Shown: positions 28,131 to 59,762 of the stretch, one piece after another
Layout: every line of letters starts with the position of its first letter
Numbering within the stretch: position 1 is the stretch's first letter
NCBI GenBank assembly: GCA_949358305.1
Contig: OX442314.1
Location: forward strand, 44,834,581 to 44,898,580
Length of the DNA: 64,000 nucleotides
Reading direction: 5' to 3'
Source: Strigamia acuminata
Taxonomy: Eukaryota; Arthropoda; Chilopoda; Geophilomorpha; Linotaeniidae
The notes under the pieces: generated by a model
What the model saw: the letters and a program-made list of their open reading frames with translations, nothing else
The model's database searches: none
What the model was told of the DNA's origin: nothing
Program-made: the position numbers and the translations under genes

Positions 28131-31100
28131 TTAGGAGATAATTTCTGCCGCTAATTTCGATGTTTTGACGCGTTTATTCCTTTCTTCGAAGTCGACGCAA
28201 ATACTACGGACTTCAGTTTGGAATTTAACAACGCGTGCAGAAATATCATCCAAGTCTTCTTGGGGAATGTCCTCATCAATTTCCAACTCAGAATCCAATT
28301 CCTCGTGATCCTCTGCCCCACTAGCCACACCGGAGACATCGGAAACTTCAATTTCCGGCTCTTCAGCCCGGTACCAATGGCGAAGATCCGACACATGAAT
28401 AGGTTGGGAAATCTTCCCGTCCTGGTCCATCAAGAGCACGGTATTTGGTCCCAGGAGTCGATGAATCATATAAACTCCTTCAGTCCGGTGTTGGAAACCC
28501 GAACTTATTTGTTTATCAGTTGATGACAAAACACGACTTTTGACGGTGACCCAATCCCCGGGTTTAAACGTATGGGGCCGCCGTTTTCGGTCATACCAAC
28601 GCTTATGGCGTAGATGGGCGGCATCCAAGTTCTTCCTCGCCTCTTCACGGATGCGTAATAAGTATCGATGAAGAAAACGCGATTCATCTGGCGGTAAGGG
28701 TTCTCCGTCGTCAGTGTCAGAGTCGACATCTCCTGGAAAACGTGCTTCTTGTCCTGTGACCATCATGTAAGGTGAAAATTTGAGTGAAGTCTGATAAGCC
28801 GTATTAATTGCTAAAATGAAAGAACCAATGTGCTTATCCCAACGCGTATGTTCGTCTATATACGCGAGGATGCACGTTTTAAGTGATTGGTTGAGTCTTT
28901 CTGCCAAGTTCCCCTGCGGATGGTAGGCGGAAATATATTTATTGACCATTCCCATTTCGGCGCACTGTGCCTGGAACTTGGCAGAGCGAAAGGTTGGGGC
29001 GTTATCACTTATTATAGTTTTTGGATAAGCCCATCTATAAGTGAACTTTTTAAGTTGTTTCACTGTTGTAGAAACGTCTGCCTTTTCGGTGAGTCTAACG
29101 TCCACCCAGCGACTGGCTGCATCCACCATTACGAACGCGTAGCAGTGTCCGCCAGTAGACTTCAACTTTTTCCCGAAGTAGTCGACGTAAATGGTCCGAA
29201 ATAACCGTCTCGGTTTCGCGGTCTCCATCTCGCCATACGGTAGCCTCCGCTCGACCTTCGCCCTTTGACAAGGTTCACAGACTTTAATCCAATTTGCTAC
29301 ATCTTTTTTCATCCCCGGCCAAAACACACGTGTTTTTAGACGCATTAGTGTTTTCTCGATCCCGAGATGGCCGGAGGTTGGTGGGAAATGTAAGCAATGA
29401 AAATACTTGTAACGAAGGGATTGAGGGAGGTAAATACGACGCGTAGGAGCTCGTTGACCGATCTTAGTTGGTGGAAACTTGCAGAGCAGACCACGGTGTA
29501 ACGCCATGTCCACTGCTCGTTTCTTAAGTTCTGCAGCCTCCATCTCACCTGGCGGCAGAGACCCTGAATTGAGATATAATATAAGTCCCTTAGACCATTC
29601 ATCGGCTAGTTGGGCTTCTTTAACGGCTTTCTGTGTTGGGAGAATCTCAATTGTCGGATGATCCGCCGGAAGTGAGTAGAAACTCTCGTCAGACGAGTGC
29701 TCAGAGTGGTCAAGCAACTCCACATCGATAGAGGGTGTTGGTGAGGCCAAATCTCGCCGTGGTTGCGTCCTCGGTGACAAGTCCCGTGGAATCACAGGAA
29801 TTTGAAACTCCTCGGAGTCCGTGTCTCCCGGCAGCTCCTCACTGTCCAACGACATTTCACTGGCTTCCGAGCCCGTAGAGCGATCGAAGATGATGGGAAT
29901 CTTTTTCGGCCTTCCGACTGGTCGCTTCTCCACAACCTTTTTTGGTCGCCCCCGTTTTCTCTTCTCAGGAACGTCAATTGGCAAAGAAACCGCACCTGAC
30001 TCTTCTTCCGAAGTTGGTGGAATAGGACGCGTTACGGGTAAAGATTTAGGCTGCGTCATGTCCCCGCTAGCCGGAGTCTTCCGCGGACGACCTCTTTTCC
30101 TTTTTACAGGAATGTCTTCCTGAGGCAAAGACACCGCCACAGATTCTTCGTCCGACATTGGCAGAGTAGGCTGTGCTCCCGGCAAGGGTCCCGCCTGAGT
30201 CGGCCCCTTCGCAATGGGATTTTTCCGTGGACGTCCCGGTCCTCTTTTTGGAGGGGGCTCGTCCTCGACCGGACATACATCCACTGCCGTAGCCGACAAG
30301 GCGTTCAATCTCGCCAGGAACGCACGTTTCTGTTTACGCATTGTTACCGCTCTAACGATTTTACAGTTGGGTGATTTCCAATGTGTCAACTCATCTAACT
30401 CCTCCATTTTGAGTACTGGCCAGTCGTTGAAATCATCGAAGTACGCACAGTAATATGTGTCATCCAACGCTGGACAGTCTTCGTCATCCAGCTCGATCGG
30501 CGGGTCAACCGGCGCCCGACTCAACGCATCGGCGACCCGATTCTTCGTACCACTACAGTGGAGGAATGTGAATCGGTATTCCGACAGCGAAAGAATCCAT
30601 CTCGCCAGTCGGCCCTTTGGCTCGCGCTGGGCCCAAAGCCATGTTAAAGACTTGTGATCACTCTCAAGATAGAAATCCATTAACTCGAGGTATGCTCTAA
30701 AGCGTTTAACGGCCCAGACGGCGGCCAGGCACTCAATTTCCGTCGCCGTATAGTTTTTCTCTGCACTGTTTAAGGCCCGTGATGCAAAGGCAATTGGGAC
30801 GCGTACGCCGTCATTGTTAATCTGCATCAACGCAGCCCCTAGACCAGAATAACTCGCATCGGTTTGTAAGATGTAAGGTTTACTCCAGTCCGGGAAGTTC
30901 CTGTGCAAAGTAGATAGCGACACTTGATTTTTGAGATACTCGAAAGCTGCCTGGTGCGCCGCCGTCCAGTTCCATGGCGCATTCTTACGCATAAGAACTC
31001 GAAAGACTTCACAGGTCTTGGAATATCCGGGGAAGAACGACGAGTAGTACCCGATCATACCCTTGAAGCGTTGTAACTCCTTCAAGTTAGTGGGGGCCGG

Positions 31101-33233: not shown

Positions 33234-35284
33234 TTTCCCGGAAACTGCCAGGGCTTAAAGCAGTGGGGACATAATGCGATGCGTTTTTCAATATCACGCA
33301 TGTACCATCTGTCCTTCCGATTGCGCACCCACTCAGCTCCGGGTGGCAACGGTGTCGTTGGAGGATTAGCCGTATTAGCGAAAGTATGGGCAGAATGTCC
33401 ACATTGTGCCGCCCCCACAGCCGGAGTAGGCTTATTCTCCGAGACTTTTACAGACGCGTTTATTTGCGGCTCTGGCACTCTCGAAGGTGCAACACTAACA
33501 ACGGACTGCCCAGCAACACTCTGCAGGTCCTCACTCGTAGCCCCAAACATTTCAGCCAACGCAACCAATTTCCGTTTATCAAACTGGAAGCGACCGGGCG
33601 GAGGCTTTTCTGCCGCCTTTGTTTTGGCAGGCTCTACCACCTTTTTGGTTGCCTTAACAGCTTGCTTATCCTTGTCCTTGGATTGAGGTCGAGGCACCGG
33701 ACCTCTTCTCACTCCGCGCTCATCGAACTTATACTGCTGAAGAGAACGCAACGCCAATTCGCTGTCAGCCTCCTGCCCCATCTCTATGGCCTGCGACATG
33801 AAGCGGACTCCGTACCGAGTCATTGCATCCGTTATCTGCGGTTGAAGGCGATGTTTCGCCATATTCCATTGTTGCCTATCCCCCCGAATACCTATCATTT
33901 CGAGGTAACGACTGATCTCACACAGAAATTCGGCCGTATCATCCCCTACTTCCTGCCAGGCATCCGTCAGGAGGACCGTTGCTTCGGCCTCCTTGAGGGA
34001 ATAACGTTTCCGGAAACGCATAACAAATTCATCCCATGTTTTTGGTTTATGGCGTAAGTGCAAGTACCAATTTAAGGGCTTTCCACACAGCGCCAAAGGA
34101 ATGAACAAGTCAATATACGCTTCATCCGGAATGCGCGTCATGATATAGTGGGCGCGCAATTTCGCTAGGAATCTTTCGACCGCATTATAGGATTGGTCAT
34201 CCTCATCAAATATCGGCACATGTTCCGACCTCACATGCGACAAGTCATATTGATCATATCGCGTCTGCGGCCGCTGCCGGGGCGTCGGCGTTACCGCTGC
34301 GGCTTGGGCGTCTCGCGCCCGTTGCAAACGCGTATTTACCGAATCCCCGCGCGCAGCTGCTGCGCGATCAACACTTGCTGTATCCGGCAAGCTAACAGCT
34401 GTCGACTTTGAGCGTATAATACTCCTCATCACCTCACTGTTACATTGTGAGGGCGTACCCATTCGAGACCCCGCGCGAGCGGTCACGTCCGATGGTCTCT
34501 CATTTGAAGGTAAACGAGGATTTACATCCCCTTGTAACCTTCCTACTACTGCAATTCCGTGCCTGTTCAACTCGCTAGGCGTCAGAATGCGTGAAGACTG
34601 AACACTTCCCCCAGGTTCCCTCTGACCGTCAGAACGAGGTCCATCACCAGGCAAAGGGTTATGAGGTCTTTGCTGAGCTGGTGGAATTACCTCCTCCTCG
34701 GGCTGTACAGCTAATGCCACGATTTCGGCCCTAACCACTTGTCTCACCCCCACAAGAGTCTCATCTCTATAATTTTCCAGTCGGTAGTCAACATGCTGAC
34801 CGAACTGGTTTAATGCTCGGACCATACGCTCATTCATGGCCAATTCCGCATTTTGCAAATACGGTAGCCATTCTGGAGGCTGTTGACCAGCCTCTCCTTC
34901 CTCTTCCTCGACGTTATCCTCAGGACTACTCCTTTGTTGAGGTGGCGCCGAAGGATTTGGTTGCACGGGCGTTAAAAGATCCGAAGCAGACACATCGACA
35001 CGAGACTCACGCGTAGACGGAGTAGTGTCCGGGCAGTAGGTACTATCCGTTGAAGTGGATTTGTCTTCTACCTTTACTCGTGTGACATCCCCGTGTGGTC
35101 GCAAGAGGTACGGCGGCCCACCGCCCCTTGCCACGGGCAAGCCATACTCTGAGCGGGTTCTCGGAGAACGCGCATCGAGGGGACGCCGTGGAGTTTCATC
35201 ACACAAGCGCTCCCCGACTCTACGCATCCAGCTAGGCCACACACTCTTGGAGTTATCCTCTTTAGGATGCCCTCCCTCTGCCAT
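33173..35284 (-). CDS. gag: E3 Gag (703 aa)
   Basis: ATG at 35284, about 135 bp after the primer site. The N-terminal half is Pro/Arg/Ser-rich and low in order. The capsid-type region (about residues 350-500) contains NWYLHLRHKPKTWDEFVMRF and a following RKRYSLKEAEA segment, typical of Ty3/Gypsy gag. There is no full CCHC knuckle: only CPHC near the C-terminus and a loose CGHSAH. RNA binding may rest on the basic KDKDKQAVKATKK stretch (inference). It ends at TAA 33173-33175, about 60 nt beyond the slippery site. Confidence 0.88.
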   Translation of the reverse strand: MAEGGHPKEDNSKSVWPSWMRRVGERLCDETPRRPLDARSPRTRSEYGLPVARGGGPPYLLRPHGDVTRVKVEDKSTSTDSTYCPDTTPSTRESRVDVSASDLLTPVQPNPSAPPQQRSSPEDNVEEEEGEAGQQPPEWLPYLQNAELAMNERMVRALNQFGQHVDYRLENYRDETLVGVRQVVRAEIVALAVQPEEEVIPPAQQRPHNPLPGDGPRSDGQREPGGSVQSSRILTPSELNRHGIAVVGRLQGDVNPRLPSNERPSDVTARAGSRMGTPSQCNSEVMRSIIRSKSTAVSLPDTASVDRAAAARGDSVNTRLQRARDAQAAAVTPTPRQRPQTRYDQYDLSHVRSEHVPIFDEDDQSYNAVERFLAKLRAHYIMTRIPDEAYIDLFIPLALCGKPLNWYLHLRHKPKTWDEFVMRFRKRYSLKEAEATVLLTDAWQEVGDDTAEFLCEISRYLEMIGIRGDRQQWNMAKHRLQPQITDAMTRYGVRFMSQAIEMGQEADSELALRSLQQYKFDERGVRRGPVPRPQSKDKDKQAVKATKKVVEPAKTKAAEKPPPGRFQFDKRKLVALAEMFGATSEDLQSVAGQSVVSVAPSRVPEPQINASVKVSENKPTPAVGAAQCGHSAHTFANTANPPTTPLPPGAEWVRNRKDRWYMRDIEKRIALCPHCFKPWQFPGNDQGPLSKPSNGKAADPKPK
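33186..33239 (-). promoter_or_regulatory. E3 gag-pol -1 ribosomal frameshift signal
   Basis: The gag frame reads CCG GGA AAC GAC, giving heptamer G GGA AAC (33233-33239), the site used by Mason-Pfizer monkey virus. After a 5-nt spacer, GGGTCC (33222-33227) can pair with GGACCC (33186-33191). The -1 frame is open only from about 33254, so the slip must fall in this short overlap. Confidence 0.8.
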
Positions 35285-35420
35285 TGCGTCAACTCAAGCA
35301 ATTTCGCAGCAAAACTCAAATGGATGATCCACTCTAAAAAAGGCGAGTAACGATACCACTCGACCTTTGTTTTCCGAATAATGATTACTAGCCCACTGGA
35401 AACAGTTTATACGGCTAGCA

Positions 35421-41703: not shown

Positions 41704-44700
41704 TTAGTTCTTCCCCACGACTTTGCCTTCCCGAATGAACGGATTATTGCTTCGTCGTGGTCGAAGGTTGATTTTCGACGTGCATGTAGATCGTGACTCT
41801 ACTTGCTCGTTCATCTCCGATGTGTTGGCATTTTTCTCATTATTAATTTTTTTATTTTCTATTTCAGAAGTACATTCTTCTGCTTCCTCCCTCTCCGAAA
41901 TTGCTTGCTCCGGTTGAGTTGGAGCCTCGTCGGCTGGGGATTCGGCGTCGAAGAATTCGTCCTCGTCCTCCGCTATATTTTCAGCTTCATTTGTTTTTTG
42001 GAACGTGTCGACCACGGTGCCCCCTTGGCCGCTGTGTGTCTGACCTTCCAGCCAGATTTCTTGGGGAAACTCTGGCAGATATGGCCTTAAATCTCGGCCA
42101 TGTATCGACTGAAAATTTTTGTTGTCCTCTAAGCGGCGTAGTTGGTATGCGTTGCCGCCGTGTTCGGCCACAATTACATAGGGACCGTCCCTCTTGTCGG
42201 CTAAACCGGCGGCGATGCCCCTCGCTGCATTGGACAACGTGTGTGCCTCCTTCCACACTAGATCATTCACTTTAAAGTTCGCGAAAGGGAGATCGCCTTC
42301 TTTATCTGCGATTCTCTCTCTCATGTTAAAAATATGCGCCATCATATGCTGGTATGTGTCGGATATAGTCTGTTCCAACCGGCACACGTACTCATGTGGG
42401 CTCGATGGGTCTAATACGTTAACAGCTTCGGCAACGCGCGGGTCCCATGGCATCCTTAATTCGCGGGCGAAGTTGAGGTACGCCGGTGAGAATTCGCGTG
42501 TTCTTGACACGGTTGAGCGAATGCTGAAAGCGATTTCTCGCAGGTATTCGTCCCATTGATTGTGAATATCGGTGAATACTGTCAGCGCATATTTTATGTC
42601 TTTATTTAATCTCTCGACTGGATTTGTCTGAGGATTATACGTGGAGGTGTTCGATGTATCCATTTTAAATTTTCTACAGAAGTCCTTATATATTCTTGAT
42701 CGGAATTGGGGGCCGTTATCCGAAATGAGTTTTCTGGGAAACCCAAATCGCATTGCCACGTCGTAAAGGCACTCGACTATGTTTTCAGCCGAGGGCTTTA
42801 CGAGGGCGTACAGCTCCGGCCATCGGGTGGCCACATCCATAATTACGAGAATATACATGTTCTTGTTTCCCGTTGTGGGCTTGGGGCCCATCAAGTCTAT
42901 GCTTAGGCAGTCAAATGGTGCGTAGGGTCCGAGAGACATGGCGTTTCTGGCCACTTTATCTCGCGGTCTGCACGCTTGGCACCGGGGGCAGTGTCGGATA
43001 AATTTCGTTATCTTTTGCCGCGCGCCCGGCCAGAAGAAAAGTTGTTTTACTCGATAAAGGGTCCTCGCCACGCCAGAATGGCTGGCGAGCGGGTGTCCGT
43101 GCATCAGCCACAACAGTCGGGTGTGCAGCGATGCCGGCACGACCACTTTAACCGAGTTTCCCGCTCCGCTGAGGTCGTCTTGAAACGTCGGGTGGTATTT
43201 TACCAGGAGTTCATCATCTATGAGGTAGCTTGTTGCTTCCTTGACGAACTGTTTTCGGCGGTGGGGTTTTGTCATCCCTTCCGGAAATTCGCCGTTTAGC
43301 AAATATTGTGTTATAATTTGACATTTTGCGTCTGCTGCCTGGTGTTCGACGAACTCACGTCTCGTGGGTGGAGCGTATTGCGTTTTTTCTTCAATTTTTG
43401 CTGTGAAGGCGCGTAGTAGTGTTTTGTGGGTTTCTCCGGGGGGCGGAGGTTGAATTTCAGATGTTGAATTGTTTGTCCCAGCTGGCTGGTACGTTCGAGT
43501 CCAAAAACCACAAAACGTTCTATCTTCGGGCTCCATCACTGGTAGCTCGTTCGCCTTCCGCAAACGCCATATTCTTCGTGGAGTCGGGCAGTACAAGAGG
43601 TGGGTGTCGTCCTCGCCGTCGTCGTCTGGTCCCTGGGGGTCAGAGGCTGGGGCTCTTGAGAGGGCGTCGGCCACATGATTGTACTTCCCGGGGCGGTACG
43701 TAATTGTTATATCGCACGCCATTAACTCCAGTTGCCATCGTGCGAGTCGGCCGGAGGGTTCCTTGAGCTTCATCAACCAGCTTAGTGCCTGGTGATCTGT
43801 CTGAACCTCGAAGTTCGTGTACTCCAGATAGTCGCGAAATTTCCGAACTGCCCAAATTACGGCTAGGCATTCTAGTTCCGTTGCCGTGTAATTTTTCTCC
43901 GCGCCCTGTATTTTTCTGCTTATAAACATACAGGGTACTTCCTGCGAGATTCCGTTGTACACGTGGGTCTGCAGAAGGGCTGCACCCAGTCCGATTTTAC
44001 TCGCGTCGGTGTGCAACACGAACGGTCGGTTTAGGTCCGGCAATGGCATCTTTTCGACGTCAGCCAGCATTTGCTTGATAGTGCTAAATGCGGCCTCGCA
44101 CTGGACCGTCCACTCAAACTCTTTATCCGTTCGTAAGAGATCCGTTATAGGCGCGGCCACCTCAGCCAGACCAGAGAGTAGTCGGCCGAAGAAATTGACC
44201 ATGCCCATAAATCTCTGGACACCTTTTATATCTTCGGGGGCGGGGAATCCGTTTATTGCTTTAACCTTTTCGGGGTCAATCGCGATTCCCTCGACTCCTA
44301 TTCGGTATCCTAGGAAGGCAAGCTCTTTTCTGCAAAACTTGCTCTTCCCTGGATGGATGTGGAGTCCCGTCTTGGCTAGGCGAGAGACCACTCTGTCGAT
44401 GTGGTCTATATGCTCTTCGAATGTGTCCGACGTTATTATGATGTCGTCGAGATACGCCCACACGAAGTCGTGAAGCATATCTCCCAACACGCTTTCGATC
44501 AATTTCTGGAACGTGCTCGGGGCGTTTACAAGCCCGAACGGCATCACGTTGAACATTAATCTTCCTATCGGGGAGTAGAAAGCCGTTTTCAGTTTGTCTT
44601 CGGGTTTGAGTTCCACTTGCCAATACCCCTTTGACAGGTCCATGGTGGTTACCCACTTAAATGGGCTCAGCTCCCGGAGGATCGAATCTATAGACGGCAT

Positions 44701-45834
44701 CTGAATCGGGTCTATAACCGTTATCGCGTTCAGGGGGCGATAATCGATGCATAGTCGAGGTTCCGAACCTGGACGCATTACCAGGACGATCCGCATGGCG
44801 TATTCGCCCAGGGCTTGCGTCACTATGCCCTTGTCGAGCATGTCTTGGCACATTTGCGTCACAATGTCTCTTTTCTGGGGGTTCATCCCCTTGTAAGGCA
44901 CTCGAATCGGCTTGTCTGTGGTTAAGACTATTTCGTGGGTTGCTTCCGTTGTTCGACCAGGTGTCTTGGTCAGAATTCTTTCATGTTTTCGAAGCACTCG
45001 CCTTAGTAGCGATGCCTCGTTGACGCGCAGTGCTGCCTCCTCGACTAGAGTGTCCACGACGTTACTCCTTTGTAATTCCAGAGTGAAGGCTGCGAAATCG
45101 TAATCTTGGACGAATTTTCGCAATCCTCTTCCGTATTCCTCTTTGTCCTTGGCTTCGTCCAGTAATTTTTGGGAAACTACGGGGACTGGCCGTTCTCTCT
45201 CGGGACTGATCCAGTTCCATGAACGGGTTATCGGGTTCGGCTGGATTTTCAGTTTCGCCATGATATCCATCCCTAGGAGGAATACCTGGTCATGGGATGG
45301 CAAGACTATGAAGGGGTGGGACAAGTTCCCTCCCTTCCAGTCGATCATGAGGCGGACTACGCCTTTCGGCTTGACGTAGCCGTTGGCGGTGAGTAATTCT
45401 ACGTTCGCGTTCACTTGTGCCATTTTTTTTTCAATATCCAAGTCCTTTACTATATCCTCGGATATGAATGAACGATCCGCTCCTGAATCCAGCAGACCGA
45501 ACAATTTTTGGTTTTCTATCTCCACTGGCAGCATACACAGAGTTTCGCAATGCGCTTTCGTGACATTGCAGTGAAATACGCGTAATGTCTGGGGCTCAAC
45601 CTCCAGATTGAACGGAAGGTCCGTCCAATCCATGTCGACCTCCGGTTTCGTTCTCACTTGCATACTCGTTAACGTCACTTTTTCCTCCTTCTTCGGAACG
45701 GCCTGTATGCGGTCTTTGATCTGTGCCTCTGCCAAGGCATGACCTGCGGGTCCAGTGTGATATTTCTTCTTTTTAATTTCCGCGGCTGGCGCAGACGAAG
45801 CTGAATTTATTTCGGCGACGCCTGCGCTTGGAAG
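41704..45834 (-). CDS. pol: E2 Pol polyprotein (protease, RT, RNase H, integrase)
   Basis: Entered by -1 frameshift at 45834-45840; about 1376 residues. Counting from the TTG at 45735: protease LLDSGADRSF (Asp ~83), RT YLDD (~428), RNase H HTDAS..TDHQALSWL, integrase HHCC (HGHPLASH..CPRCQAC), SIDLMGP, ISDNGPQF and NPVERLNKD supplying D, D and E. A DGPYVIVAEHGG GPY/F-type module and an acidic then basic tail follow. All catalytic residues are present. Clearly the closest relative of E1 pol in the window. Confidence 0.95.
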   Translation of the reverse strand, partial: LPSAGVAEINSASSAPAAEIKKKKYHTGPAGHALAEAQIKDRIQAVPKKEEKVTLTSMQVRTKPEVDMDWTDLPFNLEVEPQTLRVFHCNVTKAHCETLCMLPVEIENQKLFGLLDSGADRSFISEDIVKDLDIEKKMAQVNANVELLTANGYVKPKGVVRLMIDWKGGNLSHPFIVLPSHDQVFLLGMDIMAKLKIQPNPITRSWNWISPERERPVPVVSQKLLDEAKDKEEYGRGLRKFVQDYDFAAFTLELQRSNVVDTLVEEAALRVNEASLLRRVLRKHERILTKTPGRTTEATHEIVLTTDKPIRVPYKGMNPQKRDIVTQMCQDMLDKGIVTQALGEYAMRIVLVMRPGSEPRLCIDYRPLNAITVIDPIQMPSIDSILRELSPFKWVTTMDLSKGYWQVELKPEDKLKTAFYSPIGRLMFNVMPFGLVNAPSTFQKLIESVLGDMLHDFVWAYLDDIIITSDTFEEHIDHIDRVVSRLAKTGLHIHPGKSKFCRKELAFLGYRIGVEGIAIDPEKVKAINGFPAPEDIKGVQRFMGMVNFFGRLLSGLAEVAAPITDLLRTDKEFEWTVQCEAAFSTIKQMLADVEKMPLPDLNRPFVLHTDASKIGLGAALLQTHVYNGISQEVPCMFISRKIQGAEKNYTATELECLAVIWAVRKFRDYLEYTNFEVQTDHQALSWLMKLKEPSGRLARWQLELMACDITITYRPGKYNHVADALSRAPASDPQGPDDDGEDDTHLLYCPTPRRIWRLRKANELPVMEPEDRTFCGFWTRTYQPAGTNNSTSEIQPPPPGETHKTLLRAFTAKIEEKTQYAPPTRREFVEHQAADAKCQIITQYLLNGEFPEGMTKPHRRKQFVKEATSYLIDDELLVKYHPTFQDDLSGAGNSVKVVVPASLHTRLLWLMHGHPLASHSGVARTLYRVKQLFFWPGARQKITKFIRHCPRCQACRPRDKVARNAMSLGPYAPFDCLSIDLMGPKPTTGNKNMYILVIMDVATRWPELYALVKPSAENIVECLYDVAMRFGFPRKLISDNGPQFRSRIYKDFCRKFKMDTSNTSTYNPQTNPVERLNKDIKYALTVFTDIHNQWDEYLREIAFSIRSTVSRTREFSPAYLNFARELRMPWDPRVAEAVNVLDPSSPHEYVCRLEQTISDTYQHMMAHIFNMRERIADKEGDLPFANFKVNDLVWKEAHTLSNAARGIAAGLADKRDGPYVIVAEHGGNAYQLRRLEDNKNFQSIHGRDLRPYLPEFPQEIWLEGQTHSGQGGTVVDTFQKTNEAENIAEDEDEFFDAESPADEAPTQPEQAISEREEAEECTSEIENKKINNEKNANTSEMNEQVESRSTCTSKINLRPRRSNNPFIREGKVVGKN

Positions 45835-45840
45835 TTTTTT
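45789..45840 (-). promoter_or_regulatory. E2 gag-pol -1 ribosomal frameshift signal
   Basis: The gag frame reads GCA AAA AAC TTC, heptamer A AAA AAC (45834-45840). After a 6-nt spacer, GCGCAG (45822-45827) can pair with CTGCGC (45789-45794). The gag stop TAA is at 45807-45809. Confidence 0.88.
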
Positions 45841-48800
45841 GCCAGATTAGTATTTAACTCCATCATCATTTTCATCATGGTTTGCATGATGTCCTTTTCT
45901 TTGACGGTTTTCTCACATTTATCTGAGTAGTGGCCGTATTCTCCACAGCTGTAACATTTGATGTTACTTTTATCCCCTGTGGGGGTGAATCCCGGTTTCT
46001 TGGGGACGAAGGGCGTCGGGAATCGTCTTTTTCCTCCCAATGTCCCTCTCGCTTTTGTTGCCTGCACGTGTGCTCTGAATTGTGCGATTGCCAAGGCCCG
46101 GTGCGCATGGTGCAAATAGGGACCTTGATTGTCGCATCCCGTCGATAAGTTTTCGAGGTGCTCATTTAGGGCTTCCTCGTCGCTTGATGCTGGCTCTTCT
46201 TCTTTAGCCGTGGCGAGAGGTGTTGTCTCTTCGACTTTCTCCATCTGGGTGGAGTCCGTCGAGGTCACCTGCATCGCCGTTGCTGCCGGTGCCTTCTTTG
46301 GGGCAGCTATTGGGTTGGCTGGAAGAATACTGCCTGCTTTAGGCGTCAGCATTCGTCCGAAGGAGGCTTCGGTGAGACTCATGATGCCGCTCAAATATTC
46401 ACTTGGCCTCATTAATTTCTCTGAGGTCTTGTGACGTTCGGCGCTCGTCTGCAACCGTTTCTCGTGTGCGTCAGCTTCCTCCGGGGGCAGAGTGGCGTAA
46501 TACCGCTGTTCTATTTCTAACGTGTTTGTTAGAAGATAGTTACTGACATCTTGGTAATCGCCAGTGCGGGGTGCACGCATGTCTAGCAGAATTCTTTGCG
46601 AGTGGGCCGATAATCCTCCGTAAAAGATCATCGTAAAACCAGCGGGGTTTATTTCATACGGCGCTCTTGCAAACAGGAGTTTCGCTCGGGCGTCGTAGTC
46701 GGCTAATGTTTCTCCTGGGGCTTGTCGTAGACCACGTAATTTGTTACTGATCTCGTCTGGAGTCTCGCCGTATCGGAGATCGAAACGGACGAGAAAATCG
46801 TCCCAGGTTGGGTTTTTCAGTCCCTGATACCATTCTCGAGCTGACCCCGTGGTTAGCTCCACTAGCCCGTGGGTTAGCATGTCGGCGACGGTGGCTTTTG
46901 TCGCTTTCTTGATACGCATTACTTCGTCCAGGAAGCGGTCTCCGGCCTTCCACGAACCGTCAAATCGCGTTTGAATATAGTGCTGCCAGCGGATGTTACC
47001 CGTGGCTTCACCGCTTGGTTCGTTTCGTACGCCATATTTGCGCTTAACCCTCTCTCCAGCGCGATTATGTTCGTCGCCTGGATGGCCTAGATCGATTCCT
47101 TCTCTTCTGAAAGAGTTCAGCAGGGCTCGGCCTAGCTCAGACATCGTGTAATGTCGGCCAGATGAGTCCTGAAAGTTCCCTTCCTCCGAACGAGGGTTGG
47201 AGCTCCGGGAGGAGCGGTCTGAAGCATTCGGCCGGTTCGACCGGTGCCCATCGCTGCCTTCTTGACTCCTCCCTGTAGACGGTCGACTCGGATGGTCGTC
47301 GTCCGACGAATCGGAGGGCTCGGAGGGATCTCCTTGGGGGTGAAACCTCGGCCCTCTCGGTGGGGTCTCTCCGCCAGCCTTCTTCTGTTTCGAGCCTCCG
47401 GATGGCGGCGGCTCCTCTCCGTCGTTGTTCCCGTAAAAAAAACGCCATCTCTTTTCGTCATTTTCCGGGTGTTCTCGATCCTTATTTGCGTTCTTTTTGT
47501 CGAGCAATGCTTTGATGGCGGCCCCCGTTTCGGATCTTTTCGAGGGGTGACGGTCCCTTTGCTCGGGGATCGTCTCGTCCTTGTCTCGAGATTTTTCTCT
47601 TTTTGTCTCTTTCCTGGACCTTTTCTCATTCTCTCCTGAGTCGGTGTCCGAGCCACTGGAGGGCTCTGGTTTCCGTTTCAGGTTCTCCTCTCTTTTCCTC
47701 TTTTCCGAAACGTCCTGCTCGTACTCCTTTTGGAATTTTTCTGTCTCCTTCTCCCAGTTTTCGGCTTCCCATCTTTTTTGCTCATCTATTATGGCTTGCT
47801 TCTTCGCTTTGTACTCTTCGGTCCATCTGTCTCGTTCCCATTCTTCTTTCTCTTTTAGAAACTGCTCTTTTTCTTTTCTGGCTTCCTCTTCTCTCAACCT
47901 CTCGCGATGTTGCTCTTCCCATTTCTGATGTTGTAAAATGGCTTCTTTTCGCAACATTTGTAGCTTTTCCGCTTTTCTTTGAGTTATGAGGGCTTGAAAT
48001 TGGTCCTCGTACTCTTGAGCTTCTCGATGTCGCCCTTCTACTGTGGCGTTCCATTCTTTTCGAATTTTAGCTTCTCGTTCTTCCCTCATCTTTTGGACTA
48101 GTTTCTCTGTTCTCTCGATGGTTCTTCTCTCGCGTTGCTCCCTTTCTTCCTCTTCCTTCCAGAGTTCTCGCCGCTCTGCGCTCAGTCTTCGTTGGCGATT
48201 AATTGCTTCTTGTCTGGCTTCTTCGCGGGCTTTCTCTCTGGATTCGTGAAGTGCTCGGTTGGGGTCTGGCGCGAAACCTCCGGTGTCACTGGGCGTTACC
48301 TGGGGCATGGGCGTCTCCGCTGCTGGTCTTGCGACCGGCGTCGGGGCTTGTGCCGCGCAGATAGCGTCCGTGAGTAGAGTAATTGATTCCCAGACTGATG
48401 TTCCTACTGGGATGTCTATCATCGCTTTTAGTTGGGCAGCTTGCTGCGTCAACCGAATTAGGTGAGATACTTCGAAGGAAACAACTGCAGGACTCGCCGT
48501 AACTCGGGGGGTTATCGGGGTCCCGCCGTCGTTTTTCCGTGGGGTTTGCTCTACGGACGTCTGAGCCGTTGGTGGCGATGGGTTTGTGCCGACCGTGACC
48601 GTTTTTCTCGGAGCTTCATTCGTCTCCTCGGTCATTAATATCGATACTCGTCCCGGTGATACGTCGCGAATTTCTTCTCGATTTTCTTGGGCTTCCGGAT
48701 CGGTATCTTCGAAGGGTTGCATATTCAAGGGAACCCGCTCTCGCTCTGGCCCGTCTAGGGCCGCGAGCGATGCAGCTTGCTCCTCTTTCTGCGCCTTCGC

Positions 48801-48947
48801 TCTCCTTTTATTCGCTCGGGCTTTCGCCTTTGCGGACATTTCCGGGACGGGACCATCCGACCTTAGGTGGTAGTCGGAGGTCCTTTTTCCCTTCTCGGGC
48901 ATTCTCTGCTCGGTTTCAGACGTGGATTGTTCGTCTTTGTCTGACAT
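45807..48947 (-). CDS. gag: E2 Gag (1046 aa)
   Basis: ATG at 48947. After a disordered Pro/Thr-rich N-terminus (to about 200) comes a very long Glu/Arg/Lys-rich helix (about 230-460), probably a coiled coil or single alpha-helix. Acidic and Arg/Ser-rich linkers follow, then a capsid-type region (about 620-800, containing WKAGDRFLDEVMRI and REWYQG) and one knuckle CYSCGEYGHYSDKC (CX2CX4HX4C) at about residue 998. The layout parallels E1 gag, with a helix in the same place and a single knuckle before the frameshift site. Confidence 0.92.
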   Translation of the reverse strand: MSDKDEQSTSETEQRMPEKGKRTSDYHLRSDGPVPEMSAKAKARANKRRAKAQKEEQAASLAALDGPERERVPLNMQPFEDTDPEAQENREEIRDVSPGRVSILMTEETNEAPRKTVTVGTNPSPPTAQTSVEQTPRKNDGGTPITPRVTASPAVVSFEVSHLIRLTQQAAQLKAMIDIPVGTSVWESITLLTDAICAAQAPTPVARPAAETPMPQVTPSDTGGFAPDPNRALHESREKAREEARQEAINRQRRLSAERRELWKEEEEREQRERRTIERTEKLVQKMREEREAKIRKEWNATVEGRHREAQEYEDQFQALITQRKAEKLQMLRKEAILQHQKWEEQHRERLREEEARKEKEQFLKEKEEWERDRWTEEYKAKKQAIIDEQKRWEAENWEKETEKFQKEYEQDVSEKRKREENLKRKPEPSSGSDTDSGENEKRSRKETKREKSRDKDETIPEQRDRHPSKRSETGAAIKALLDKKNANKDREHPENDEKRWRFFYGNNDGEEPPPSGGSKQKKAGGETPPRGPRFHPQGDPSEPSDSSDDDHPSRPSTGRSQEGSDGHRSNRPNASDRSSRSSNPRSEEGNFQDSSGRHYTMSELGRALLNSFRREGIDLGHPGDEHNRAGERVKRKYGVRNEPSGEATGNIRWQHYIQTRFDGSWKAGDRFLDEVMRIKKATKATVADMLTHGLVELTTGSAREWYQGLKNPTWDDFLVRFDLRYGETPDEISNKLRGLRQAPGETLADYDARAKLLFARAPYEINPAGFTMIFYGGLSAHSQRILLDMRAPRTGDYQDVSNYLLTNTLEIEQRYYATLPPEEADAHEKRLQTSAERHKTSEKLMRPSEYLSGIMSLTEASFGRMLTPKAGSILPANPIAAPKKAPAATAMQVTSTDSTQMEKVEETTPLATAKEEEPASSDEEALNEHLENLSTGCDNQGPYLHHAHRALAIAQFRAHVQATKARGTLGGKRRFPTPFVPKKPGFTPTGDKSNIKCYSCGEYGHYSDKCEKTVKEKDIMQTMMKMMMELNTNLAKNFQAQASPK

Positions 48948-49010
48948 TTTCTTTCGATTTGGGTTATCTTATTGAGAGATCACAAGTTCAGATTTGAGAT
49001 TTATTTCTAA

Positions 49011-51060: not shown

Positions 51061-51344
51061 TTTACTTTATTTGAGCATCATTAGGCCTAATATTAGGCTT
51101 AATACTGCTAAATAACAACTAGAATTAGAAAATCATCTGCGCAGAATGAATGGGATGCTCAGTACCAATTTAGCATCAAGATACTGGGCGCGAATCAAGG
51201 TTGACACTTTTGATATAAATGTGTTTATTAGTTTGTCACTCAAATGTACAACGTAATATTAACATTTCGTTGTGAATAGATAGAAAAGGTAATACAATTC
51301 AATTTATTTGGTTTTTACGGATGTTTAAAAAGCTTTTTATCTAT

Positions 51345-51415
51345 GTTTCTTGCCACACTCATTTTGACACACCTAGCGATACACTTAAAATGTTTCCGAT
51401 AAAACATTCATTATT
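51345..51415 (-). pseudogene. Decayed DEG/ENaC TM2 exon, copy 1
   Basis: The minus strand encodes IGNILSVSLGVSK then a stop, matching IGNILGLSLGLSILS of the intact exon at 51865-52234. The flanking DNA is also alignable. Confidence 0.6.
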
Positions 51416-51527
51416 TGGTTAAAATTAACTTTGTACAGATTATGCTCTTGTTCTTTTCTGAATATTAAAACACAATTCATTTGGTGTTTTCTAATGTCGA
51501 AAAACAATTTTTTCCTAATTTCTTTTT

Positions 51528-51605
51528 TTTTTGCCAAATTCAATATTCGCACATCTAGTGATAGAGTTAAAGTATTGACATTTATTTGTGAATCGAAGAA
51601 AGGGA
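51528..51605 (-). pseudogene. Decayed DEG/ENaC TM2 exon, copy 2
   Basis: The minus strand encodes INVNTLTLSLDVRILNLAKK, a degraded version of the same TM2 segment; the G-x-S filter is lost. Confidence 0.5.
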
Positions 51606-51864: not shown

Positions 51865-54800
51865 TTATTGTTGGTGATGTTGAAAAATAAGTTTTTCCAT
51901 TTTTCCAGCCACACTCAATATTGACAGACCTAGCGATAAACCTAAAATATTTCCGATGTCGCATATGAACGAGATAATGTCGTATTCAAGTCGGTCAATA
52001 AAAATTTGAATTTTGTTTGTTTCGAAAAAATGGCCTATTACAATGGTCATAAGTCTTTTATAGGATGTAAGTTGTGCCAAGCTAGAGTACTTAGATTCTT
52101 TGCAGGGTATGTGACATTGACATTCATCTTTAACATTTGTGTCAAGAAAAGTCTTTTTGTAGATAGAATCAGTCGTTTTCGCCGATTGAGAAGTGTTGCA
52201 CATGGGATATCGCAGTTGGTCTATGTACGGTAATCTGGGGAGAGAACATTTTTGTTAGCTATGATGTAGTGGTTTATGCATTTTACAAATCTAAATTCGG
52301 TATTCCGATTAACGTGCAGTTAATTTCAAAGTCAAAGATGGGGAATGTGAATAATTTGTTGCCAAAACAATAAATAGAATTTGTTTGAAACAAATGAATA
52401 AATATTTTTTCTGATAGTTGGTTTAGAAACTTTGATGTTTTTATGACTGGGTGCGTATACTGTATGCTGCCAGTACAAACATACCGGCATGTTAATTTTT
52501 CATTCAGTTTTTTGCGGTAACATTGCTTTTTGCACTGATAGAAATCGTTTGGTGGCATACATTTTCGTCTTGGTGTATTTATGCGATCAAACTATTAATA
52601 AATTAAAAGAAATATTTGTTAGTTTATATTTTTGTAATAATTACACAGTGATCACTGATCAGGATTCAATCAATGCATCTTAGATCAGGCAACAAAGCTC
52701 ATACTACTCTGACCGGACTTTGTGGAGTGGACTGGGTATATTTTTTGGGGCCTAAGCTATCCCATATGACTCAAAAACAAGATCTCGGAACCATACTCCA
52801 TTGTAAATTGAGGACTAAGTCTCCTGACATGTATCCTCATGGTTTTCTCTAATTCAATGTTCAAAAACAGTTTTTTTTTGCGACCCATTTTGACATAAAA
52901 TCTACTCTCTTGGAACACTGTATAAGAGCAGTCGGGTGATGGCTTTTTGAGTTTGGAACCAATTGATGCTTTTGACTAAAGTATGATGTGTTCGAGTTTT
53001 CTCACCTTTATCAGGCGATACCCAACCATTACTAAGGTGCCACCTCTGAATGGTAATAATCCATTTGAAGTCAAATCCAAATCTTGGTCTTCTCTTGTTG
53101 TTATGAAAAACTTTGTGATACATGACAATCCATTAACATACGAAATGAAATGACTGATTGATGTGCTTTTTTTACCTCGTAGTATTGGTCACATAACGTC
53201 AATTTAGGAGTCTCGTACAATTTCAGAAGCATCGTGGCTTGGCCATTGTACGGAGCTTCATCTAGTAAAAGGATTTGTGATTAAATTTTTATTCATTCAT
53301 TTTCAGTAAAATCCACCATTCAATCAGTTAATCGGCATTTTCCATATTTTGCGGACGATAAAATGCGTTAGACCAAAGATGTACAGCAAATTTTTGAATC
53401 ATAACATGCGAAGGATCAAAAGATTTAAAAAATGTAAAAAATCAAATTTAAAATTTAATTTTTTATTATTATTTTCATAATTGTCCGAATTATTTTCATG
53501 GGAATGCTCGAAATAATTTTATGGGATTTCTCAGATTTGCAATAAGTTTGGATTATAAGACGCACTTCGGACCATAAGACGCACCCAACTTTTGGTCGAA
53601 TTTTCAAAGTCCGTCTTATGGTCTGCAAAATACTGTAAACTATCTCAAAGCTGAGACTAGCTGACCCGAAATTACCAAGACACAACTACAAGCTCTAGTT
53701 AACTTCAAGTAATTTTATTAACAAACAATTCTTCTTTATATATCTCATTGGTCAGCTCTGATTGGCTGACCAGAAACGAACAGCCCCGATTGGCTGTTTT
53801 ACCCCAAAACGTCTACTGGACATATTTGCGTATGTCTGCCCGCCCCCTGGCGACCGTTGTCGCCCGTCCTCGGTCTCGAACCCGAAAAACTCCACAATAC
53901 GATGATGCAAAATAATATTAAAAACAGAAGAAGTCGAAAGTGTTTTGTCTACAATTCTCGATACAATAACTTATTTGGATTGAAGTGTCGATTGCTTCCA
54001 ATACTGTGACACTCGATAGAAAGGTTGATAATGTAAGTCATTTTGGAGCATGAAGTTAAGACTCACCAATTAAGTAATGTGTACATATTCCTCTTGGGGT
54101 ATTTATTTCAACGTCTGAAAACTGTACCTGTCAAAAGATAACATTTATAAGTTGACTATCTGGTAAGTTGCATAATTCTACTTACGAAATCAAAGGGGGT
54201 TAGAGCTTCTGAAGGGGAAGACTGCTCCCATAGTTCTTCTATTGTGAGGTTTTCTCCTTTTAGGTTTAGTAGGCTCAACATGTGAATGGGACAATCACTT
54301 TGACTCAGATTATTTTCATCAGCATACATCTTCTCCAATTCAACGGTTGTCGGATTCGTCATTACACAAGCTGTTATGTTTGGAAAGGTTACATTTGCTT
54401 CGTCCGCAACTGCAATGTTTACTCGTATGGGATATGCCATGTAAGTCATCAATTTGAAGTATATCATGACTAGAAACAGAGAGGTGCAGCCGAGATAAAC
54501 AACCTTTTCCAATAAGCTTGTGTTTTGAATACAGCTGCAAGGAATTGACTCGTTTTCTTTCAGCAGGGATGAGAAATGGCTTTTTGTTTTGTGGAGATAA
54601 TGCCATACTTTGAAGTGAATTCTTCTATTGTTCCGTGAAGTTGCATTACATTTTCGATAATTGATGATTAATGTGATCAAATCCAAAACTGAAAGTATTG
54701 ACATTCCGAGGTAAAGGCCAATGTTTCCGGCTGCATCAATGAGTAAATCGACAAATCCATAAGCAAATCTTTCTTTGATGACTTCAATAACGGTTGATGC

Positions 54801-55640
54801 TACTCCGTTTTCGCGTTCTGTCAACGGGGCATCTGATGTAGTAGATGTAACATATTTAATCGGCTTTTCTATTTGAGTGCACATTCGGTTGCACAAGCAC
54901 TTTAATTCTGAGTTTATTTTTTTTAGTTTTAAACGAATGCTTTGGTACAGGTTGTATGTATCGATGGAAGTATTGCATGTGTCGCCCGTCTTTCCACTTA
55001 TAAATGGCATTCTGAATAAACATTAGGGAGTTTCATTAATTAAGGCAATTTTGTACTTTTGTAAATTTTGCAATTTTGCAATTTTGAATTTGTCACATGC
55101 TATCAGTTCCGCCAATCATGTGCATAATTGCAAATATGCAAAAGAGAAAAGAATACACAATCACAAAATCAAAGTTAGTTTTCAATTCATTCATTCATTT
55201 CAATTCATTTCAATTCTATAAGAAAAAATTAGAAAACTGAACTGAAATATTGGTGAAAATTGTAGTGAACATGAACTAGTTCACACGGTGTACTTTAGTG
55301 TACTTTGTACTTTAGTACTTTTGTGCTTTGTACTTTGTACTTTAGTGAATGTACAAATATACAAAATTGTCCAGATCATACAATTGCAAAATTGATTAGG
55401 TTAGTAATGTAATCCCCTTTTTGGAAGCATCAGAAATTAATAATTTTGTGGTTAATACGAAATCACAAAATTGCAAAATCATTGATATATAATGAAACCC
55501 CCTAAGAATATTTAATCAAGCTTATGTTAGTATTGTGTATTTGTTCACAAATTCATTTAGATTGCTACTGTGTAGAAAGTGATCCCTCACCTGCACGGTT
55601 GTTGACTGTAAAAATCTTGTAGGCATTTCTCGTGACATTT
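51865..55640 (-). CDS. Concatenated DEG/ENaC (pickpocket-type) sodium channel, partial, TE-disrupted
   Basis: Seven exons: 55640-55591 (cut by E1b), 55011-54186, 54127-54067, 53261-53176, 53110-53006, 52591-52485, 52234-51865. All junctions are GT..AG and in phase. The first exons give the end of unit A: KCHEKC..PCR joined to MPFISGK, extracellular Cys, TM2 GNIGLYLGMSILSVLD with the G-x-S filter. The same exon then runs into unit B: cytosolic linker, TM1 (YLGCTSLFLVMIYF), FPNITACVMTNPTTVE, then GICTHY, the Cys-rich YQCKKQC..LTCR joined to LPYIDQLRYPMC, and TM2 GNILGLSLGLSILS, stop at 51865. The R-codon split (phase 2) is identical in A and B. No ATG separates A from B until inside TM1. The family forms trimeric amiloride-sensitive cation channels in the plasma membrane. 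Confidence 0.83.
53548..53629. mobile_element. Short MITE-like inverted repeat in intron 3
   Basis: ATAAGACGCAC blocks and the inverted GTCCGTCTTATGGTC lie within about 85 bp, typical of short DNA-transposon derivatives. Ends are not defined. Confidence 0.4.
53634..53896 (-). repeat. Solo LTR, 263 bp, in a DEG/ENaC intron
   Basis: Starts TGTAAAC and ends CCACA on the plus strand, flanked by ATAC on both sides (53630-53633 and 53897-53900). Read on the minus strand it begins TGTGGAGTTTTTCGGG and holds TATATAAAG followed by AATAAA, so that is probably its sense. Two perfect hairpins (GGTCAGC..GCTGACC, AACAGCC..GGCTGTT). A different family from E1-E3. Confidence 0.78.
55012..55590 (-). other. 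DEG/ENaC intron between the split Arg codon exons
   Basis: Donor GTGAGG at 55585-55590, acceptor TTTATTCAG before 55011. The intron contains runs of short GTACTTT and CAATTTTG repeats and no coding potential. Confidence 0.65.
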
Positions 55641-56644: not shown

Positions 56645-56738
56645 AGTCATTGTATAAATTTTGATAGTTTAAAATTTACCCGCCATTTTTATCTTGCTTA
56701 TCTTTCTTCTCTATCCTTTCTTTGTCTTCATTTGAAAA

Positions 56739-59700
56739 ATGGCGACTCCTTCAGAGAAGAGACCGAGAGGAAGGCCGGCGAAGAGACGAGTGGCGATCGA
56801 TCTACCAGTCGTGGATCAAGAAGTGACTGAGTCACAAGAACTGTTTGAAGCCATGGATCAAACAGCTAACTGTAACTCGGCACAGTTAATCGTGAATGAA
56901 TTCACGCAAGCGTTGGAGCGACAACAGCCATCCCCGCCAAGCGGCCAGTTGGACTTAAACAATCCAACTGGAAGTGGCCGTTCCAAGTCGCAAAACGATG
57001 ATTTGAATTTACGAATTCAATCATCAAGTGCAGAGCACTCGCTGAATTCATCACCGGTTCAAGGTGCAGCACAACAAGATTCTGAGAACTCCAATATGGA
57101 AGTTTCTCATTCTCCCGTGCGTGTAACCATGATGGACGCACTCCGTGAGCAAGCTAGGCTCGAGGGAGTAAAAGTCACTAGCGAAATGACTGTGGAACAA
57201 ATCCACAAAGCTATGGTTCGCAAACAAAGCCAAAAAGACGTTGAAATCGTCAGAACAAGCTTGCAAGCAGAGTTCGAGCGAATGCGTGCAGAAATGCATC
57301 AGCAAAATGCCGAACTAAAACAACAACGTGCGAATGACCATGTTAAGTTGTTACAATTAGAGCAGGAAAAAGCTTCCTGGCTAATTACTGACGAAGAGCA
57401 ACAACAAAGGCTCGAGCAACTAAATCAAGCCCAAAAAGATTTAGAAATTGCTAATGAAAATTTGAGATTGGCCAACGCAAATTTGCGAGAAGCCAACACA
57501 AATTTAATGACTGCCGAACTAACCGCCCCAGTTCGAGCGAGGGAAGTAATTCCCTCCACTTCTCGAAATTACGAGAATCATGCTGCAGAGCAAGCAGCAA
57601 GAGCTAAGAGATTAGCACAACGAGAAAACGAAGTATTTCTCGCTCGACAGCAGTCCGTAATTGATGCTGGTCAAGCCGCCAAAAGTCAAAGTACTGCAGA
57701 GCAGTTATTACGTGCCGACTTAGCTGCGCAAGCTCGTGAAAACGAAATTCTTCGCGCAGATCTGTTGACGGTACAAGAGAACTTTGCAGTAGTCGTACAA
57801 AAAGTACAAGACGTTTGCGGCGAAGATAATTTTGCAAAGCCAGCCCCAGTTTTGCAAAAAGGTGCTTCCAAATCACCTGAGTTGATTGATTTAACATCAG
57901 CTAAACCAAAAGTCAGTCGACAATCAAGTTGGACTGACAGCGATGACTCACGCAGTAGTCGTGGAAGCCGTAATAGTCATCACAGTCGCAAAAAGAGAAA
58001 GCGACAACCAGACCCGACCGAATATCATTCCCCAAAAGTTCCGCAAAATTCGGATAGATTCTTTAGCAATAGTGACCAATTAATTGGATTGCTGGCGAAA
58101 AAGAATAAAGAACGTGAGAAACCACACGATCGTGGACGGTCACACGATAATCCGCGAGAAGGCTCACCAAAACGAGATTGTCACAACGACATCCGTGATG
58201 GGCCGAGATACCGTGGAAATCCGCCAGGTGGTGACCCACCAGGTGGAGACAGTTCAGATGGACATGGAGGTGGCCACTCACGTGACCACAATTCGAATGG
58301 CAATCGAAATGGAAGGGGACCACCAAATGGAGACCGTCGTCCGCCAGATGGCGACGATCCTCCGGACCCTGATCCGTCGCCAAATCCGAATCATGAATCT
58401 GCCTCAGATACAGATTCCTCACGTCCCAGTGTGAGAGGGCGATCTCGTCACAGAACACGTAGTAGAACTCAAAGACCCGATTTTTACACGAAAGATGAGA
58501 TTGACCAGTTGTTGAGGCAAAATGCTCAACAACAGCGAAAAAGCAGAAGGGATAAAATTATTTTGCAAAAAATAAGTGAATTTACTTCTGATAAATGGAC
58601 TCATCAAACAACAGATGAAAAGTTCATTAGATGGGATCGAGTTATCCCACATGCCTATAATGGAAATTGGCAAGCAGGGTCAAACCTCTTGCTGGAAATA
58701 TTCGAACTAGGCAAAGTTCACAGTTTTAGCTGTGAAGGTGCATTGGCCCATCTAGTACCAAGAATACTAGTTGGCGGTGTCAAGGAGTGGTTTCGCAGGA
58801 AAGACTTCACGAAGTGGGATGACTTCGTTAAACAATTTATGTTTAAATTTGGTGAATCGAGCGAAGACATCAAGACGCTCTGGAGATGTCTTAAGCAACG
58901 AAAAGGCGAAAGCTTACATTCGTACATGCTAAGAGCAGAGAATCTGCTTGGCAGAATGCCACATGCTGTTACTGATGCAACAGCAGATGATCAGTTTAGA
59001 GCTGGCCTCACAGAATATAGTAAAAATATTCTGATGATGTCGGACGCTCCCGACCCGGGGAAATTCTCCGAGTTAAACGAATTCATGGAAGTCAATCAAT
59101 TGCGCATTGACGAAAAGTACAAAGCTTATCTTACAGAAGCCGAAAGGTCAGCGTACTTAAAGCGAGAGAAAAGACTCGCTGAGCAAAACAATGAAACCTT
59201 TAATGGTTTGAAATTGTTGCAGCCACCTAGTTACGAAGACTTTCTAGACGAAGTGGATGAGAAGAGTTCGAAAAAAGAATCTTCCAAAAAGGACGTCAAA
59301 AATCCTCATTCAGTTCCTAAGTTACATGCAAATATAACTGGAGCTGAAACTCCGTCGTCTGAAGCTGAAGAAGCTGAAGAGGAGGAGGAAGCAGGAGATG
59401 AGACGTTGGCTTTATTAGCCAAAGCAGCGGCGCTGTTAGCAAAAAATAACCCCGTTGCAGGCAAATGGAAGCCAAAAATGAAACCAAAAAATGTTTCATT
59501 TGACGCATCAAAGGTGAATACCGAAAGGAATTCAAAATCACCCGCGGTGTCGCCAGAGCGCCGGTCTGACGCTCGTTCTCGTTCTGCCTCGCCAGCAGCA
59601 ACGAAAAAGAAATCGCCTGCCACTGATCCATGCAATTTATGCAAAAAATTAGGGCATTGGCAAAAAGACTGCCCTTCCTCTAAAAAGGACAAACCAGTGT

Positions 59701-59762
59701 CAACAGCTGAGTTTGAAAAAGCAGTCAAGATCATAACTGACATGTTTCGAAAAAACTTGTAG
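56739..59762 (+). CDS. gag: E1b Gag (1007 aa)
   Basis: Same plan as E1 gag: AT-hook-like KRPRGRPAKRR at the start, coiled coil, RS/DG-rich linker, capsid-type region, zinc knuckle CNLCKKLGHWQKDC at residue ~965, FRKNL end at TAG 59760-59762. Three residues longer than E1 because of an extra RGS unit in the Ser/Arg stretch. Most differences are single substitutions. Confidence 0.93.
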   Translation: MATPSEKRPRGRPAKRRVAIDLPVVDQEVTESQELFEAMDQTANCNSAQLIVNEFTQALERQQPSPPSGQLDLNNPTGSGRSKSQNDDLNLRIQSSSAEHSLNSSPVQGAAQQDSENSNMEVSHSPVRVTMMDALREQARLEGVKVTSEMTVEQIHKAMVRKQSQKDVEIVRTSLQAEFERMRAEMHQQNAELKQQRANDHVKLLQLEQEKASWLITDEEQQQRLEQLNQAQKDLEIANENLRLANANLREANTNLMTAELTAPVRAREVIPSTSRNYENHAAEQAARAKRLAQRENEVFLARQQSVIDAGQAAKSQSTAEQLLRADLAAQARENEILRADLLTVQENFAVVVQKVQDVCGEDNFAKPAPVLQKGASKSPELIDLTSAKPKVSRQSSWTDSDDSRSSRGSRNSHHSRKKRKRQPDPTEYHSPKVPQNSDRFFSNSDQLIGLLAKKNKEREKPHDRGRSHDNPREGSPKRDCHNDIRDGPRYRGNPPGGDPPGGDSSDGHGGGHSRDHNSNGNRNGRGPPNGDRRPPDGDDPPDPDPSPNPNHESASDTDSSRPSVRGRSRHRTRSRTQRPDFYTKDEIDQLLRQNAQQQRKSRRDKIILQKISEFTSDKWTHQTTDEKFIRWDRVIPHAYNGNWQAGSNLLLEIFELGKVHSFSCEGALAHLVPRILVGGVKEWFRRKDFTKWDDFVKQFMFKFGESSEDIKTLWRCLKQRKGESLHSYMLRAENLLGRMPHAVTDATADDQFRAGLTEYSKNILMMSDAPDPGKFSELNEFMEVNQLRIDEKYKAYLTEAERSAYLKREKRLAEQNNETFNGLKLLQPPSYEDFLDEVDEKSSKKESSKKDVKNPHSVPKLHANITGAETPSSEAEEAEEEEEAGDETLALLAKAAALLAKNNPVAGKWKPKMKPKNVSFDASKVNTERNSKSPAVSPERRSDARSRSASPAATKKKSPATDPCNLCKKLGHWQKDCPSSKKDKPVSTAEFEKAVKIITDMFRKNL

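Follow-up and report, generated by a model that had tools for sequence, protein, structure and literature searches.

A DEG/ENaC gene with a joined exon

The window, a 64,000-nt stretch of the 237.5-Mb genome of Strigamia acuminata (C1:44834581-44898580), contains a gene for DEG/ENaC channel subunits. The arginine kinase of this genome, with two two-domain chains at the top set aside, scores highest against shrimp and crab entries, followed by Limulus, spider, and Daphnia, as would be likely for an arthropod. Six minus-strand exons, spliced via GT-AG introns, give a single 517-aa frame that enters toward the end of one subunit (unit A), runs through a second (unit B), and closes with a TAA stop codon (51867-51865). 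From 5' to 3' along the gene, the features are:

54186..55011, minus strand: joined exon, with unit A's terminal Cys-rich segment and TM2 (GLYLGMSILS), a linker, and TM1 (LLEKVVYLGCTSLFLVMIYF) and early ectodomain (FPNITAC) of unit B; open frame, Pfam ASC match, at least 286 loci in the genome
54067..54127, minus strand: exon B2, with an RGICTHYLI motif; GT-AG, in frame, same exon in the intact paralogue L092
53176..53261, minus strand: exon B3; GT-AG, preceded by a phase-1 intron, homologue in L092
53006..53110, minus strand: exon B4; GT-AG, homologue in L092
52485..52591, minus strand: exon B5, with a C..C motif, ending in TCR and a phase-2 split Arg codon; GT-AG, homologue in L092, weak similarity to A5
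51865..52234, minus strand: last exon B6, with the Cys-rich region, TM2 (GLSLGLSILS), and the stop; one Pfam ASC match (E 5.8e-12), paralogous last exons
51320..51400, minus strand: degenerate duplicate of the TM2 end of B6, 3' of the stop; 80% identity over 82 columns to 51876-51957

The 826-nt joined exon is open throughout between a CAG acceptor and a GTAAGT donor, and its open reading frame was matched by Pfam ASC (PF00858) in two stretches (E 2.1e-12). Between TM2 of unit A and TM1 of unit B lies a basic linker of 47 aa that lacks Met, the first downstream Met being within TM1, and a phase-2 intron splits an Arg codon in both units (AG|A and CG|A). A sequence-only reading of the window had described an exon open from one subunit into the next, no ATG between them, and a shared phase-2 intron in the Arg codon, and all three were confirmed here. 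Between B3 and B4, a 22-nt intron was discarded in favor of one of 65 nt, which preserves both homology and phase; the L092 exons are identical in plan. By eye, the Cys-rich ectodomain between TM1 and TM2 was present in unit B of the window and in both units of L092. The predicted fold of the joined exon was unusable (pLDDT 39), and Rfam gave no match in the window above its gathering scores.

A recent retrotransposon in exon A5

The 5' side of the gene is occupied by a mobile element and reaches beyond the window:

55591..55640, minus strand: 3' part of exon A5 (..CHEKCLQDFYSQQPCR), cut by the retrotransposon, then donor GTGAGG; 72% identity to A5 of the paralogue L029 over 18 residues
55641..64000, continuing to position 4027 of the adjoining stretch (L009), plus strand: LTR retrotransposon inside exon A5, recognized by its LTR pair and target duplication

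The element spans 55641-68027, a distance of 12,387 bp from one outer LTR end to the other, and has identical LTRs of 984 bp each, a 4-bp target duplication (ATTT), a gag-like open reading frame (56736-59762), and a zinc knuckle that scores slightly below the Pfam cut-off. The piece at 55640-55591 had been assigned to the gene beforehand, and it does belong there, but it is only the 3' part of A5; the 5' part lies outside the window, at 4085-4028 of L009 (window-equivalent 68085-68028). We searched L009 for the missing unit A exons with L029 peptides from A1 (TM1), A2 (GTC motif), A3, A4, and A5 (..QQPCR|), and located A1, A2, and A3 of the window gene at 5432-4675, while A4 was not found there by this search. 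Since the LTRs are identical, the insertion is recent, and since it lies within a coding exon, the window copy as assembled cannot make an intact unit A. The joined exon is unaffected by the insertion. Judged from these features, the copy in the window belongs to the family but was disrupted recently.

An intact member with four transmembrane segments

The paralogue L092 (C4:3019300-3029000, minus strand) has 11 exons joined by GT-AG introns, giving 2349 nt and 782 aa with the sole stop at the end. Its hydropathy profile has four peaks (residues 43-61, 365-383, 431-449, and 743-761), two TMs per unit and four in the chain, compared with the two TMs per polypeptide by which the channel family is recognized. 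Pfam ASC scored over its cut-off in each half (E 4.4e-12 and 2.3e-13), and the HG motif before TM1 was absent from both units by eye. Each unit carries five introns at matching positions, with phases 0, 1, 0, 0, and 2 in both, and the joined exon corresponds exactly to the final exon of A followed directly by the first exon of B. Such a plan is the expected trace of a fusion that lost the stop of A, the intergenic DNA, and the start of B. The gene therefore reads A1(TM1)-A2-A3-A4-A5-[A6 fused with B1]-B2-B3-B4-B5-B6, in one frame in the intact member.

The GxS selectivity-filter motif in TM2 was found in all of the units examined (47/47 A and 14/14 B). The surrounding pore signatures were mostly D.[GA]GN..L..G.S in A and mostly D.GN...L..G.S in B, as displayed for all 14 B motifs and only 8 of the A motifs, and these distinct signatures suggest that the two units have fixed, different roles.

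Hundreds of joined exons in the same genome

We detected at least 286 distinct joined-exon loci; within the aligned stretch, 269 had no stop and 17 had one. This count is a hand merge of 309 matches, each with a minimum of 480 aligned bases, from the 684 returned by five genome searches; last-exon-only matches, fragments, and matches already taken from another list were left out. Some of the loci counted are near-identical segmental copies (C8:11.12-11.21 Mb), and loci on the small contigs C32 and C50, which score the same as one C1 and one C4 locus, may be assembly duplicates. The 517-aa chain had at least 85 matches in the genome and revealed more than 30 additional joined exons at 48-85% identity. 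A distant joined exon, that of L026, had at least 149 matches, of which 123 were judged joined exons, and queries from three further families had at least 150 matches each. The divergence among joined exons is wide, those of L026, L027, and L028 being 28, 22, and 19% identical to that of the window, respectively. A cluster at C6:3.70-4.34 Mb contains 38 joined-exon loci on a single strand. Relatives of the window gene were not found in viral contigs.

Among 45 joined exons (the window, 40 chosen from stop-free matches, and L026-L029), the coding frame held 0 stops, whereas the two remaining sense frames contained 884 and 790. The zero is partly a product of selection, and the 269/286 open loci are a less selected measure; by these frame counts, the openness of the joined exon exceeds chance. 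It had been anticipated that the idea of concatenated subunits would fall if the joined exon were unique to one broken allele, and the loci above show that it is not unique in this genome. The broken-allele explanation would see in the window only gene debris with an exon that is open by accident. It can point to the LTR element in A5 and to damage in some paralogues, such as a frameshift in A1 of L029 and a stop in the joined exon of L030. Yet the break in the window copy lies elsewhere in the gene and is recent, and the joined exon is open at nearly all loci with dN/dS below 1 (given below), so we assign this explanation a negligible probability. The sequence evidence refutes it for the joined exon, and it holds for unit A of the copy in the window.

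Two units per gene

We compared the order of first, joined, and last exons along the genome. In the L026-like subfamily, 76 of 81 joined exons were preceded by a first exon and followed by a last exon, each no more than 20 kb away on the same strand; two had the first exon only, one the last exon only, and two neither. These placements used 83/150 first-exon, 81/149 joined-exon, and 82/150 last-exon matches among those listed, with distant families and most fragments left out. The window subfamily, from which remnants and fragments were left out, had the order A1-joined-B6 within 40 kb in 35 of 37 cases. The three exon types thus occurred at nearly one to one to one (83:81:82 and 37:37:40), and in no case did a joined exon follow a joined exon within 20 kb (L026-like) or 40 kb (window subfamily). 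The order A-joined-B and the lack of consecutive joined exons indicate two units per gene.

Two candidates for a three-unit gene were rejected: on C3, two joined exons that have no other listed exon in between are 60 kb apart, and L027, where A1, a joined exon, and a second A1 occur and the later unit B exons are not recognizable, resembles a truncated gene. The sequence-only reading had proposed a chain with four or more TMs, and four TMs in two units is what we observed; the larger number was not seen.

Single-unit DEG/ENaC genes, examined among loci L001-L008 and L013-L025, also exist in this genome, with TM1 and TM2 in separate open reading frames that alternate in tandem arrays. Their presence in tandem lends some weight to the possibility that the window holds two adjacent genes, the joined exon being a read-through or overlap of separate transcripts with unit B starting inside the exon. 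Operon-like transcription of related genes has also been reported from Drosophila. Against two separate genes are the frame kept in the 269 open loci and the near-equal numbers of A1, joined exons, and B6.

The linker evolves as coding sequence

Linkers ranged from 33 to 48 aa and held 6-15 K/R and 0-5 D/E, a composition expected for a cytosolic stretch. Pooled pairwise dN/dS was calculated for 40 of the 45 joined exons in four groups of 16, 5, 9, and 10 sequences, giving 0.65, 0.68, 0.53, and 0.36 for the linker, 0.60, 0.45, 0.42, and 0.27 for the A part, and 0.34, 0.43, 0.25, and 0.23 for the B part. In each of the four groups, constraint within the joined exon was lowest in the linker; its values in the two window groups (0.65 and 0.68) are only moderately below 1, and the 0.36 of the fourth group is rough, with a linker dS of 1.66 near saturation. 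By this measure the linker still evolves as coding sequence.

Met was absent from 24 of the 45 linkers and present in 21, and in these 21 internal initiation could still occur, as two separate genes would require. The 24 linkers without Met and the linker dN/dS below 1 count against such a start, and we regard two adjacent genes as very unlikely. Another explanation is that one frame is translated and then cut into two subunits by a protease or by ribosome skipping, the fusion serving 1:1 co-expression of A and B. The low constraint on the linker and the full channel plan retained by A and by B both fit with cleavage. However, no 2A-like motif was seen by eye in the 45 linkers; the linker is predicted to be cytosolic, beyond the reach of lumenal proteases; and its length stays within the range above even in the distant joined exons of L026, L027, and L028. 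We therefore consider cleavage improbable. The locus is very probably a member of a very large two-unit DEG/ENaC gene family whose product would be a single A-B chain. The earlier proposal of concatenated subunits is thus borne out at the level of sequence, at hundreds of loci in one genome, even though the window copy itself is broken.

Origin of the fusion

Trees were made of TM2 exons (46 sequences) and TM1 exons (45 sequences), with weak deep forks in both. Across the families sampled, unit B formed one clade in the TM2 tree (99/98, 13 sequences) and in the TM1 tree (98/95, 19 sequences). The distribution of unit A implied two changes in the tree of TM2 exons and a single change in that of TM1 exons, where support was weak (57/51), and single-unit genes were placed between A and B. 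Because the trees separate A from B and place single-unit genes in between, the fusion appears to have joined subunits that had already diverged, and the trees speak against a recent tandem duplication. The prior suggestion, in which a gene duplicated in tandem and the boundary was then lost, therefore seems only partly right. We suggest one old fusion of two already distinct DEG/ENaC lineages, followed by radiation.

Known relatives and natural concatemers

Searches of protein collections with the 517-aa chain, the joined exon, and L092 residues 290-480 returned no match, and since ordinary ASC proteins were missing as well, this has no bearing on rarity. Databases may contain automatically predicted gene models that carry two ASC domains. 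Searches of an open-access literature collection, including the available text of PMC3583452, PMC9822975, PMC7738191, PMC12714832, PMC10507113, PMC10329638, and PMC4529235, showed no natural DEG/ENaC concatemer.

The best solved sequence relatives of L092 are the centipede PDPNaC1 (PDB 9jf7; E 8e-16) and BRTNaC1 (8ymr; E 1.2e-12 to 1.5e-12), which are short DEG/ENaC units like those of the family here. The two centipede channels are likewise the nearest solved sequences to the window gene. PDPNaC1, described as a homotrimer in the text available, also lacks the canonical HG motif according to the accessible part of PMC12714832, a likeness to the L092 units. In contrast to the two units of L092, both have one unit per polypeptide, with solved chains of 421 and 431 residues.

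Laboratory concatemers link subunits in one chain as here, but are engineered. As given in the text available, artificial ASIC1a chains of two, three, and four units produced typical ASIC1 currents, together with smaller bands that the authors ascribed to cleavage or incomplete synthesis, so the currents need not come from full chains (PMC4529235). Three-unit ASIC2a/3 chains have also been made, according to the available part of PMC10329638. The family described here differs in being a genomic fusion at hundreds of loci and in having two units only. The order and ratio of subunits in heteromers are explored by means of engineered concatemers; a family of natural ones would offer a ready-made experiment and, if real, would show which subunit pairing evolution retains.

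Assembly of A-B chains

Known DEG/ENaC channels are assemblies of separate two-TM subunits, and the novelty here is four TMs per chain. We propose that the two-unit gene would yield a single polypeptide, its termini and linker all on the cytosolic side and its A and B units covalently adjacent around the pore. The usual view is that DEG/ENaC channels are trimers, and three positions cannot be filled evenly by two-unit chains, which poses a puzzle of stoichiometry. Gene fusion has joined subunits in other channels, as four-domain sodium and calcium channels and two-pore channels are natural internal duplications; these divide evenly into a tetramer-like pore, in contrast to two-unit chains in a trimer.

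A trimeric channel therefore needs a third unit beyond the A-B chain. We tentatively favor one A-B chain together with a third subunit from a single-unit gene. An assembly of two A-B chains with one unit left out is unlikely, though it deserves consideration, and three A-B chains forming two linked trimers would be less likely again. It is improbable that A-B chains form no channel of their own. A tetramer of two A-B chains was considered because PMC4529235 argues, in its available text, for ASIC1a tetramers, which two such chains could fill; we think this highly improbable.

A putative receptor repertoire

The number of genes, their tandem arrangement, and the presence of damaged copies point to a putative repertoire of chemosensory-type receptors. 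The spider mite reportedly has a large ENaC expansion. Insect and mite DEG/ENaC (ppk/ENaC) members have been shown or suggested to be chemoreceptors, and the available text of PMC7738191, which describes them, makes no mention of a fused gene in these repertoires. It is conceivable, and we put it forward with reserve, that in S. acuminata a whole receptor repertoire of hundreds of genes consists of fixed A-B pairs that complete trimers with a shared third subunit or form linked double trimers, so that the gene would set subunit order and ratio. Two-unit DEG/ENaC genes may thus represent a putative, unrecognized class of sensory receptors.

Copies of the joined exon and single-unit genes

The joined exon, a single open exon that carries the TM2 end of DEG/ENaC unit A, the linker and the TM1 start of unit B, was found at no fewer than 38 loci, all on one strand, in an array at C6:3.70-4.34 Mb of the host genome (G000), and the order there was in most cases first exon (A1), joined exon, last exon (B6). 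Remnants with 58-59% identity to the joined exon of the window, interrupted by one or two stops apiece, were detected on two other contigs:

G000 C11:3666494-3727953, joined-exon remnants
G000 C8:3387591, joined-exon remnant

Because three of those on C11 are spaced at 18 kb and have equal scores, the C11 remnants probably represent a duplicated pseudogene block. At L027 4901-9998, in the same genome, later unit B exons were not recognisable between the joined exon and the start of another first exon; this is probably a truncated two-unit gene. DEG/ENaC genes with one unit each, a possible source of partner subunits, lie close together:

C4:7.356-7.386 Mb (L013-L015), tight tandem array of single-unit genes, one gene per 2-4 kb

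Surroundings of the window gene

Downstream of the B6 stop, 51320-51400 and 51481-51576 seem to be decayed TM2-tail copies of the last exon, the former with 80% identity to 51876-51957 and the latter with only a weak tblastn match. A large share of the window (1-64000) looks like LTR retrotransposons of Ty3 type, assigned by eye from open reading frames (ORFs):

11328-18592, 28131-35293, 41704-48968 and 56736-59762, ranges containing long gag-/pol-like ORFs (named by eye)

Of two such ORFs tested against Pfam, one had no match and the other a zinc knuckle slightly below the cut-off. The DEG/ENaC exons of the window form an island amid this Ty3-type retrotransposon-like sequence.
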